Shown here piece after piece: positions 32,566 to 38,981 of a stretch of DNA of 49,279 nt. The DNA is from Actinomycetota bacterium (GTDB lineage Bacteria; Actinomycetota; Thermoleophilia; RBG-16-64-13): NCBI GenBank assembly GCA_018830645.1, contig JAHJSA010000080.1, forward strand, positions 1 to 49,279, read 5' to 3'. Each line of letters opens with the position of its first letter. The stretch's first letter is position 1. The position numbers and the translations under genes are program-made. The notes beneath the pieces were generated by a model. It was not told where the DNA came from, did not search any database, and was given only the letters and a program-made list of their open reading frames with translations.

Positions 32566-32577
32566 CTTCATGAAAAG

Positions 32578-32649
32578 TGGGCGCTACAGGATTTGAACCT
32601 GTGGCCTCTTCCGTGTCAAGGAAGCGCTCTCCCCCTGAGCTAAGCGCCC
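32578..32649 (-). tRNA. tRNA-Val (anticodon GAC)
   Basis: A 72-nt cloverleaf: acceptor GGGCGCT/AGCGCCC, anticodon stem CTTCC/GGAAG with loop TTGACAC (anticodon GAC), and T-arm ACAGGTTCAAATCCTGT. Discriminator A, CCA not encoded. It is last in the tRNA-Gly/Cys/Val cluster. Confidence 0.95.
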
Positions 32650-32709
32650 GATCAAGCCGGCCAATGATACCTTGGTGCGCGTTCATGAGACAAGGTTCGG
32701 CAGGAGAGG

Positions 32710-32781
32710 AGGCGCCGACCGGAATCGAACCGGTGTATCGGGTTTTGCAGACCCGTGCCTCAGCCTCTCGGCCACGGCGCC
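32710..32781 (-). tRNA. tRNA-Cys (anticodon GCA)
   Basis: Acceptor GGCGCCG/CGGCGCC with discriminator T (U73, the cysteine identity base), anticodon loop CTGCAAA (GCA), and T-arm ACCGGTTCGATTCCGGT. CCA is not encoded. It lies between tRNA-Val and tRNA-Gly in one minus-strand cluster. Confidence 0.95.
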
Positions 32782-32796
32782 CTGCCATCACGAGAA

Positions 32797-32816
32797 ACGG
32801 GGCCCGAAAGCCCCGT
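32797..32816 (-). terminator. hairpin between tRNA-Gly and tRNA-Cys
   Basis: ACGGGGC/GCCCCGT stem of 7 bp with a six-base loop, followed on the minus strand by TTCTC. It could be a weak terminator or a processing structure between the two tRNAs. Confidence 0.35.
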
Positions 32817-32834
32817 GACGACCACGGTGGTTTT

Positions 32835-32911
32835 TGGAGCGGATGAAGGGATTCGAACCCTCGACCTTCTGCATGGCAAGCAGACGCTCTAGCCAACTGA
32901 GCTACATCCGC
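32835..32911 (-). tRNA. tRNA-Gly (anticodon GCC)
   Basis: Acceptor GCGGATG/CATCCGC, D-arm AGCTCAGTTGGCTAGAGC, anticodon stem TCTGC/GCAGA with loop TTGCCAT (GCC), and T-arm GAGGGTTCGAATCCCTT. CCA is encoded. It is first in the cluster, about 55 bp after a strong promoter. Confidence 0.95.
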
Positions 32912-33090: not shown

Positions 33091-34734
33091 TCAGATCAGC
33101 CCGTCCAGAGCCTGGTTGGCCAGGGCATCGGCACGTTGGTTGTCTTCCCTCCGGACGTGCTTCACGTCCACCCGCTCGAAGTCCTGGATCAGAGCGCGAG
33201 CCTGAAGGTAGAGTTCCTTGAGCTGCTCGTTCTTCACCCTGTACTCCTGGCGCAACTGTCGCACCAGTAGCTCCGAATCCGACGAGATCAGCAAGCGGGC
33301 GACGCCCCGATCCAGCGCGGTCTCGAGGCCGGTGAGCAGCGCCTGGTATTCGGCCTGGTTGTTCGTGGCCGTGCCTATTCGGGCACCGATCTCCTCGAGC
33401 ACGTTGCCGTCCGGGTCTTCGAGCACAACGCCGATAGCCGCCGGCCCAGGATTCCCCCGCGAGGCCCCATCGGTGCGCAGGACGAAGGCTTCACCGTCGA
33501 TCGAATCACGCACGCCCAGCTGCAAGGCGCGTTCACGCACCTCTCCTCCCGCCTCCTCCAGATCGAAGAGCCGCGAGACCCCGCCGCGGATTCCCGCGTG
33601 CGATACAGGCCTAGCCTTGCGCCACGGCGAGCGGGCGCCCTCGGAGAACTGAACGGCGACATTCAAGCCCAGCAGGCGGGCCGCCAGCACCTCGGACCAC
33701 CGCGTCATGGCCCACGTCTCCAAATGGTCGTGGGGAACCACGATCAGCGCGAGCCCCAACGCGGCCGCACGGTCTGCGTCGTGGTACTTCAAATCGCCCG
33801 TGACATACGCGTCGGCCACGGCCGCCGCATGCTCGATGAGGCCGCCTCCACTGCCGGTGACAACAGCCACCCGGTCGATAGTACGTTCGGCGTCACCGGC
33901 GTAGCACACTTCCGGAAGCCCGAAGACCTCAGCCGCGGTCTCCGCCAACGATACCAACGAGATGGGTGTGCGGGTCTTCCCGACTCGACCTATCCCGCCG
34001 CTGGAGACGACGTTCTCGACCGGATAGACGTCGAAGGCCGGTTCTTCGTACGGATGAGACTCGATGTACGCCTGCACGACCGAGGCGACCTTGCCGGCCG
34101 GTACCACCGTCTCGAACCTGATCTCCGCGATCCTCTCCGCGCGACCGGGAGCACCCACGCTCGGTCGCGCCTCGGATCCGGGAAGGAACGTACCCTCTCC
34201 CCCCACCTCGAAGGCACAACGCTCGTACTGGCCGATGCGACCTCCGCCGGCGGCGAAGACGGCTTCCGCCACACTTGCGAGCGCCTCCTCGGGCACGAAC
34301 CCAACAAGCTTCTTCACCCCTGCGGTCGCCCGCACCAATGGCCACATGTCGGCCAACCCGAGTTCCCGGGCAACGATGTCGTTGAGACCTCCAGGAGCCG
34401 CGTCCAGGTTCGTGTGGCAGGCGAAGACCGCGATGTCCGCGGCGATGAGTTGGGTCACGATGACGCCGACCCGGTCCTTGTCGGTGACACGGGCCAGCGG
34501 CGAGAAGATGAGCGGGTGATGGGTGATGATCGCCTGGTAGCCCCCGGTGACCGCTTCGACCACGACGTCCTCGCTGAGGTCCAGTGCTACCAGTATCTTC
34601 CGCACCACCGTGCCGCGGCGGCCAACTAAGAGACCGATATTGTCCCAGGGCTCGGCGAGAGCGCGGGGCAGTATCCCCTCGAGGCTACGCTCGAGATCCT
34701 CCACAAGCATGGGGGTCTTCTGGTCTCGACTCAC
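33091..34734 (-). CDS. NIF3/YqfO-family protein fused to RNase HI domain
   Basis: The protein has 547 residues. Residues 1-370 are a complete NIF3/YqfO-type module. Metal ligands are HH at 72-73 (ITHHPLIF), Asp111 (HTNLDAAPGG), and the C-terminal pair in VVPHDHLETWA (His335, Glu339). A YqfO-type insert lies between, containing VQAYIESHPYEEPAFDVYPV. After a linker of about 45 residues, residues 416-547 form an RNase HI fold with all four acidic residues: Asp422 (RTDGASRGNPG), Glu462 (NNQAEYQALL), Asp486 (SSDSELLVRQ) and Asp536 (DNQRADALANQAL). His526 is a possible extra catalytic residue. The predicted activities are RNA cleavage in RNA-DNA hybrids plus an undefined metal-centre function. The ATG follows tRNA-free sequence. 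No partner gene is adjacent. Confidence 0.92.
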   Translation of the reverse strand: MSRDQKTPMLVEDLERSLEGILPRALAEPWDNIGLLVGRRGTVVRKILVALDLSEDVVVEAVTGGYQAIITHHPLIFSPLARVTDKDRVGVIVTQLIAADIAVFACHTNLDAAPGGLNDIVARELGLADMWPLVRATAGVKKLVGFVPEEALASVAEAVFAAGGGRIGQYERCAFEVGGEGTFLPGSEARPSVGAPGRAERIAEIRFETVVPAGKVASVVQAYIESHPYEEPAFDVYPVENVVSSGGIGRVGKTRTPISLVSLAETAAEVFGLPEVCYAGDAERTIDRVAVVTGSGGGLIEHAAAVADAYVTGDLKYHDADRAAALGLALIVVPHDHLETWAMTRWSEVLAARLLGLNVAVQFSEGARSPWRKARPVSHAGIRGGVSRLFDLEEAGGEVRERALQLGVRDSIDGEAFVLRTDGASRGNPGPAAIGVVLEDPDGNVLEEIGARIGTATNNQAEYQALLTGLETALDRGVARLLISSDSELLVRQLRQEYRVKNEQLKELYLQARALIQDFERVDVKHVRREDNQRADALANQALDGLI

Positions 34735-35724: not shown

Positions 35725-36342
35725 TCAGGCCTTCGTCAGCACGAAGACTCCGTGCTCCGCGAACAGATTGGGAAGGAAGGTCACCGGCCTGCGAGGTCCC
35801 AGGTGGAGGCTCCGCGTGATACGGAACCCCTGCTCACGGGCGAAGACCTGGAAGTCCTTGACGCTCAGGCTCCTGATGTTCGGCGTGTTATACCACTCGT
35901 AGGGTAACGCCTTGGTCACCGGGGCCCTTCCGGCGAAGAGCAGGTGGGTGCGCGCCCGCCAGTTGGCGAAGTTCGGCAAACTCACGATCACGTTCCGCCC
36001 CACGCGCAGGCACTCTTGAAGAACGAACTCGGTCTCCCGAGATTGCTGCAGCGTCTGCCCGATGATGACGTAGTCGAACATGCCGTCGGGGTAGTAGGAG
36101 AGCCCCTCATTGATGTCGCCGTGATACACCGAGAGCCCCTTGCCCACGGCGTCGTACACCTTCTCCTCCATGATCTCCACGCCGGTGCCGCGCACGTCCT
36201 TGCGGTCCACGAGCATCTTCAGGAGCACACCGCGGCCACAGCCGAGGTCGAGCACGCGGGACTCCTGCTCGACAACGTCTACGATGAAGAGATGGTCGAG
36301 GCGCTCTCCACTGGGAGCACGGGCGATGATGCTGCTAGGCAC
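35725..36342 (-). CDS. metW: MetW-like methionine biosynthesis methyltransferase-fold protein
   Basis: The 205-residue protein has a SAM-type Rossmann fold: [19 protein letters not shown] (motif I), [23 protein letters not shown] and [20 protein letters not shown], the last two characteristic of MetW. MetW pairs with MetX in many bacteria and is required for full homoserine acyltransferase activity. Its first bases overlap the end of metX by 8 bp, so the two are translationally coupled. The ORF is complete. It is the last gene of the metY-metX-metW unit. Confidence 0.93.
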
Positions 36343-37504
36343 GGCGACGGGCCTCCCTATGGGCGGTGACCTCGAGGAAGTGCTTGATCACGTGAGTCTG
36401 CTGGTCGGTCTCAACGAGGAACGCGTCGTGTCCGAACGTGGAGTGGATCTCGACGTACGTGGTGTCGAGCCCGTTCCCTTTGAGCGCCCGCACGATCTCC
36501 TTCGACTGATAGGGCGGGTACAGCCAGTCACTGCTGAAAGCGATCACCAGGAACCGGGTGTCCGCCGGCACCTCGCGCAGGGCTTCCACGACAGTGCCGT
36601 GGCCGTCGGCCAGGTCGAAGTAATCGAGGGCCTTGGTGATGTAGAGGTAGGTGTTGGCGTCGAAGCGGCGGATGAACACGTCGCCCTGGTAGCGCAGGTA
36701 GCTCTCCACCTCGAAGTCGGTAGTGAAATCGTAGCCGAGCACCTCCTTGCCGCGCAGCCGCCGGCCGAACTTGAAGTGCATCGACTCATCCGACAAGTAG
36801 GTGACGTGGCCGATCATACGAGCTACCGAGAGCCCCGCGTCGGGGTGGTCATGCTCGTAGTAGTCGCCGCCGCGCCAGTTGGTGTCGCGCATGATGGCCT
36901 GACGACCCACCTCGTTGAAGGCGATCTGCATGGGCGAGTGCCTATGGGTGGAGGCGATGGGGATGACCGAGGCCACCATCTCTGGGTAGGTGGTGACCCA
37001 CTCCAGGGCCTGCATCCCCCCCATCGAGCCGCCGGTGACCGTCAGCAGACGCTCGATGCCCAGATGCTCGAGAAGCAACTTCTGGGCACGCACCATGTCG
37101 GGGACGGTCACCACGGGGAAGCGCAGGCCGTACGGTCGACCGGTCGCCGGGTCGGTGGTGGAGGGGCCGCTCGACCCTCGACAGCCGCCGATGACGTTCG
37201 AGCAGATCATGAAGTACTTGTCGGTGTCGAAGGCCCGACCGGCGCCCACCATCATGTCCCACCACCCTGGCTTGCTGTCGCCCTCGTGGAAGCCCGCGGC
37301 GTGGGCGTCGCCCGACAGTGCGTGCAGCAGCAGGATGGCGTTCGACCGCTCGTCGTTCAGCGTGCCGTAGGTCTCGAAGGCCAACGTGAGCGGCGCGAGG
37401 GTGAGCCCCGAGTCCAGAGGCAGCGAATCGAACTCGGCGTAGCGAGTCTCCACCCAGCCCACCGAGCTGTCGAATGTCTGCCCATCTATATGGTAGTCGC
37501 TCAC
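36335..37504 (-). CDS. metX: homoserine O-acyltransferase
   Basis: This enzyme transfers an acyl group (acetyl most often) to homoserine, the committed step to methionine. The 389-residue alpha/beta hydrolase has the nucleophile elbow [15 protein letters not shown] (Ser160), the acid SSDWLYPP and the catalytic His in [10 protein letters not shown]. The N-terminal [11 protein letters not shown] and [20 protein letters not shown] segments are diagnostic. Acetyl versus succinyl specificity is not certain from the sequence, but the MetY partner suggests acetyl. It is downstream of metY across a 97-bp spacer holding a strong hairpin and overlaps metW. Confidence 0.96.
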
Positions 37505-37548
37505 CCGACCTCCTCTGCCGGGGGCGGCCCGGCTTCACCGAGCGCCGA

Positions 37549-37575
37549 GCCGCCGCGCCTTCCGGGCGCGGCGGC
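37549..37575. other. GC-rich hairpin between metY and metX
   Basis: GCCGCCGCGCC and GGCGCGGCGGC form a perfect 11-bp stem with a five-base loop. No U-tract follows on the minus strand, so it is more likely an mRNA-stabilising or processing structure between metY and metX than a terminator. Confidence 0.5.
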
Positions 37576-37601
37576 CTCACGGCCCGGCACCGCCGCCCGG
37601 C

Positions 37602-38981
<1,380 letters not shown>

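Follow-up and report, generated by a model that had tools for sequence, protein, structure and literature searches.

In this study we describe a protein that joins a YqfO-type NIF3 (DUF34) module and an RNase HI domain in a single chain, encoded in a stretch of 49,279 nucleotides from an Actinomycetota bacterium (the window, in what follows). Most likely it functions as an RNase HI of the RnhC type, held by a tether on a NIF3 oligomer with PII-like caps. The reading that we prefer, and to which we give a probability of roughly 45%, is that of a two-part protein in which the RNase HI is tied to the PII-like domain, the NIF3 metal site is a separable element, and the fusion arose by loss of a DUF164 gene. 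It draws on a series of related loci in the same class in which the parts of the protein have come apart in different ways.

Architecture and conservation of the fusion

The gene at 33091-34734 on the minus strand is one uninterrupted open reading frame of 547 amino acids with no internal stop; it starts with a GTG at 34734, an alternative ATG lying at 34710. The features of the gene and of the region just downstream are as follows.

33091..34734, minus strand: NIF3 (YqfO-type)-RNase HI fusion, 547 aa; single ORF, Pfam and NCBIfam matches, frame kept in 35 class genomes, dN/dS 0.09
34342..34710, minus strand: NIF3 N-terminal half, residues 9-131 (H72, H73, H107, D111); Pfam, alignment to 2gx8/3lnl, invariance, confident model
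34015..34323, minus strand: PII-like insert (COG3323, HPYEEPAFD motif), residues 138-240; profile hit on the PII-like part of 2gx8/2nyd, alignment with standalone genes of family f6
33619..33987, minus strand: NIF3 C-terminal half, residues 250-372 (D314, H318, H335, E339); Pfam, alignments
33493..33618, minus strand: linker, residues 373-414, of varying length among relatives; low pLDDT, gapped in the alignment
33100..33492, minus strand: RNase HI domain of Rv2228c/RnhC type, residues 415-545 (D422, E462, D486, D536); Pfam, structure alignment, Foldseek
32835..32911, minus strand: tRNA-Gly(GCC), downstream of the fusion; within the class it marks the position of fused loci, of PII plus RNase HI loci and of some loci with RNase HI only
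32708..32781, minus strand: tRNA-Cys(GCA), mostly adjoining tRNA-Gly at fused loci; tRNA calls

The initial annotation had read the gene as a two-domain protein with both active sites intact, and this holds. Pfam assigns residues 9-369 to DUF34_NIF3 (PF01784; E 9.6e-69, 232.3 bits against a cut-off of 23.4) and residues 421-542 to RVT_3/RNase H (E 2.4e-30), and the protein passes NCBIfam TIGR00486 with 186.9 bits against a cut-off of 130.55. Across 20 aligned fused relatives all eight NIF3 ligands (H72, H73, H107, D111, D314, H318, H335 and E339) are unchanged, as are the four RNase acids D422, E462, D486 and D536, which align with acidic residues of Rv2228c (3hst), 4e19 and 3u3g. The nearest solved structures are, for NIF3, Bacillus cereus YqfO (2gx8) and Staphylococcus aureus SA1388 (3lnl/2nyd); the RNase HI domain comes closest to Halobacterium RNase H1 (4e19) and Mycobacterium tuberculosis Rv2228c (3hst). 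YqfO and SA1388 share the NIF3 core, the PII-like insert and the metal motifs with our protein and differ from it in having no RNase HI domain. With its metal-site residues and a PII-like insert carrying the HPYE motif, the NIF3 part is of the YqfO form, subgroup G of Reed 2021 (PMC8469502). The RNase part shows the RNase H fold together with the D-E-D-D acids, and its site is probably active. Against the equivalog model for RNase H plus acid phosphatase (NF005567) the fusion reaches 119.3 bits, below the cut-off of 326, and the match is confined to the RNase H part; hence we regard the fused module as an RnhC-type domain and not as an RnhC.

Both halves of the fusion are under purifying selection. 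Compared with a genome of the same genus (G316), dN/dS is 0.063/0.696 = 0.09 for the whole gene, 0.07 for the NIF3 halves, 0.08 for the RNase H and 0.15 for the linker, the highest of the parts. In an AlphaFold2 model (mean pLDDT 86.9) both domains are confident and residues 371-414 fall below 50, which suggests that the RNase H sits on a flexible tether. Foldseek recovered both folds from the model, with target-normalised TM-scores (TMt) of 0.96 to 4e19 and 0.91-0.96 to 3hst for the RNase part.

The surroundings of the gene offer two further observations. On its 3' side lies a tRNA-Gly(GCC)-Cys(GCA)-Val(GAC) cluster (32577-32911, minus strand), of which the Gly gene, often with the Cys gene, recurs beside RnhC-type RNase HI throughout the class. 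Upstream, at 35725-38954 on the minus strand, MetW, a MetX-like acyltransferase of the alpha/beta hydrolase fold and a PLP enzyme of Cys/Met metabolism stand in a row, probably a methionine biosynthesis cluster.

Other NIF3 and RNase H genes of the genome

Contrary to the initial annotation, which had mentioned a second NIF3 in the window, there is none: the 3.87-Mb assembly holds a single PF01784 match, namely the fusion gene. Nor does the genome lack a free rnhA, as had been thought possible. A canonical RNase HI gene separate from the fusion is located on contig C74 (L223:1294-1914, minus strand) and scores 207.8 bits with NF001236 against a cut-off of 160; a PF13456 search by itself does not pick it up. 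RNase HII is encoded on contig C89. The fused domain thus adds to the genome a second RNase HI, one of the Rv2228c/RnhC type, and the view that it is the sole RNase HI of the cell was dropped once a weak second match on C74 turned out to be the canonical rnhA. Mycobacteria likewise have more than one RNase H (PMC7466739).

Distribution of the fusion and of its neighbouring genes

How widespread the fusion might be had been raised as a point to check. Among the matches listed, the full fusion in one frame occurs in 35 of 249 genomes of the same class, the window's own genome and 34 others, distributed over three families: f1, the family of the window's genome (13), f3 (13) and f71 (9). It is also present in four named genomes, three labelled Thermoleophilia and one 'Actinomycetes bacterium'. 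In trees the named L034 is nested within f3 and L035 is paired with an f71 member, a placement from which we infer that the fused families belong to the Thermoleophilia, Actinomycetota. An origin in the Chloroflexota, considered at first, was given up on account of the named loci. No fusion match was found in four f1/f3 genomes of 96-99% completeness (G250, G333, G305 and G317), be it through loss or an assembly gap.

In other families of the phylum (e.g. f21, f24 and f35) separate adjacent genes occur in the order NIF3, DUF164, RNase HI, and the Bacillota contig L091 has the same arrangement. L091 and L061 (Clostridiaceae) had been candidates for fusions on account of full-query matches; both were rejected since the matches fall on adjacent genes. 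DUF164 consists of a coiled coil plus a C4 zinc ribbon. It was not found in the window's genome (G000), and neither do the four named fused genomes have it; DUF164 matches were obtained in ten genomes of the class, none of them from the fused families. We sought a remnant of the zinc ribbon in the linker and saw none in the alignment of fused relatives.

DUF164 and RNase HI are previously known neighbours of NIF3 (PMC8469502, PMC3372290), RNase HI ranking in the top ten (PMC8469502). The mycobacterial operon has the order Rv2230c (NIF3)-Rv2229c (DUF164)-Rv2228c (RnhC) (PMC7466739), that is, the same gene neighbours and an RNase HI of the type that is fused here; unlike our locus, it encodes NIF3 separately, includes DUF164 and has the RNase HI fused to CobC. 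WS2117 of Wolinella succinogenes (PMC3372290) is also a fusion of cluster neighbours, but one of NIF3 and DUF164 without RNase HI. The NIF3-RNase HI type of fusion is itself already on record: Reed 2021 (PMC8469502) lists NIF3-COG0328 (RNase HI) among the high-confidence bacterial DUF34 fusions, joining the same two families as here, and our protein with its two domains on a single chain belongs to that class. The main text of Reed 2021 is without Thermoleophilia, DUF164 loss, a ligand-less version or a PII-RNase HI gene pair.

Loci in which the NIF3 core is eroded or absent

In family f75 the fused frame is kept in three genomes (L144:1098-2756, L162:1202-2839 and L224:1762-3426). All eight NIF3 ligands are replaced in these proteins (0/8) and all four D-E-D-D acids of the RNase are retained (4/4). 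Searches recognise their PII-like and RNase HI domains but yield nothing significant for the NIF3 halves, which, although eroded, have stayed conserved among the three genomes. Each of the three encodes separately a free YbgI-type NIF3 without the PII-like insert.

Family f6 has taken a different form. Here, at 27 of 28 loci, RNase HI is immediately preceded by a standalone PII-like gene of some 105 codons, and in 24 of these 27 the stop and start overlap by 4 bp. Examples of the pair are listed below.

L132:3319-4034, PII-like gene plus RNase HI (f6)
L133:2582-3297, PII-like gene plus RNase HI (f6)
L135:2515-3227, PII-like gene plus RNase HI (f6)
L150:2723-3462, PII-like gene plus RNase HI (f6)
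L164, PII-like gene plus RNase HI (f6)

None of the Pfam and NCBIfam models scored above its cut-off on the PII-like gene. PF01784 is absent from six of the ten f6 genomes tested, one of them a single contig at 97% completeness. Outside the class nearly all PII-like domains among the matches listed in a wider sample of the phylum lie in frames of NIF3 length, so that in this sample the link to RNase HI is specific to the class. The partnership is also dispensable, given that at the loci examined in f4, f5, f72 and f73 an RnhC-type RNase HI stands without an adjoining PII-like domain.

Several fused, PII plus RNase HI and RNase HI-only loci are alike in being closely followed by a tRNA-Gly(GCC), an argument for their positional orthology. 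In trees built from 129 and 103 columns, f6, f75 and the group with RNase HI alone fall among the fused families; in the AU test a single clade of fused proteins is not rejected (p 0.197 and 0.292). That f6 and f75 derived from the fusion is thus no more than moderately supported, and the shape of the trees favours a fusion ancestral to the whole class that was dismantled later.

Discussion

In the mechanism that we propose, the C-terminal part would function as a type 1 RNase H like that of Rv2228c/RnhC, presumably cutting RNA-DNA hybrids as an endonuclease, and would be joined by a flexible linker of some 44 residues to a YqfO-type NIF3. By homology to 2gx8 and 3lnl the latter should assemble into a toroidal hexamer whose metal sites are dinuclear and whose lids are PII-like trimers. 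The PII-like (COG3323) domain may then multimerise the nuclease and perhaps gate it by a ligand or position it, and the NIF3 dimetal site would provide an activity separable from the rest, open to loss or to transfer to a free gene. As to its origin, the fusion most likely came from the widespread NIF3-DUF164-RNase HI cluster by removal of the DUF164 gene. The patterns of retention in f75 and f6 point to the PII-like domain, and not to the NIF3 metal site, as the conserved partner of RNase HI. It might be possible to go further and regard the PII-like domain of many NIF3 proteins as a dedicated partner and multimerising or ligand-sensing regulator of an RnhC-type RNase HI. The NIF3 of Thermoleophilia would then have been taken apart step by step, leaving scaffolds devoid of ligands in some genomes and PII-like and RNase HI genes with coupled translation in others; we consider this idea rather less likely than not.

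The main rival to the preferred reading is passive co-expression, according to which the domains work independently and the pairing of PII-like domain and RNase HI is a leftover of the old cluster. We find this somewhat doubtful and still a serious contender: the long linker predicted to be disordered would suit it, the RNase H and CobC domains of RnhC are a precedent for functional dissociation (PMC7466739), and at the loci examined in f4, f5, f72 and f73 the RNase HI does without a neighbouring PII-like domain. However, many genera of f6 have kept the PII-like gene beside RNase HI, with the 4-bp overlap, after NIF3 was lost, and f75 has conserved a NIF3 scaffold despite the loss of its metal site, neither of which would be expected of a passive leftover. 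The same two families bear on the explanations that give the NIF3 metal site a direct part. A role of NIF3 as metal chaperone or insertase was proposed by Reed 2021 (PMC8469502), and the neighbours and fusion partners of DUF34 are enriched in metal-binding proteins (PMC8469502); NIF3 might accordingly load Mg/Mn onto the attached RNase HI or protect it. This seems improbable to us in view of f75 fusions with no ligand left and of f6 RNase HI genes without an adjoining NIF3 core.

The initial annotation had suggested a role in nucleotide or nucleic-acid metabolism, with the NIF3 site and RNase HI acting in series on R-loops, oligoribonucleotides or nucleotides. The general link to nucleic-acid metabolism is reasonable. 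The coupled, NIF3-catalysed step is, like metal loading, disfavoured by f75 and f6, and we hold it to be hardly likely: two intact active sites in a single chain and the DNA binding of the NIF3 proteins TTHA1606 and MJ0927 (PMC4163360) speak for it, but the literature searched yielded no instance of NIF3 acting as a nuclease or on oligoribonucleotides, and the f75 fusion lacks the NIF3 site altogether. There is next to no chance that the protein is degenerate or results from a frameshift or an assembly error; an artefact is ruled out by the identical frame in the 34 further genomes of the class and by the dN/dS of 0.09, and in the fused proteins aligned the catalytic residues are all kept. The possibility had been raised that the domains are encoded separately in relatives and joined here by a frameshift; separate neighbours do exist in other classes, but there is no frameshift in this gene.

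The natural series of separation, from the intact fusion through the ligand-less fusion to a PII-like gene with RNase HI, looks new: in the main texts searched we found no report of ligand-less fusions or of an overlapping COG3323-RNase HI pair. Among COG3323-bearing forms the NIF3-COG3323 fusion alone has been described as occurring without a separate NIF3, with a mimivirus as the single exception (PMC8469502). The f6 genomes are thus bacterial exceptions to the rule that a standalone COG3323 needs a NIF3 core gene (PMC8469502).

In conclusion, we characterized a NIF3-RNase HI fusion together with the forms into which it separates. NIF3/DUF34 proteins are nearly universal and many of their structures have been solved, and we know of no agreed function for them. 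The separation series in Thermoleophilia makes it testable which module of NIF3 relates to RNA-DNA hybrid metabolism, and it highlights COG3323 and RNase HI as a specific candidate pair.
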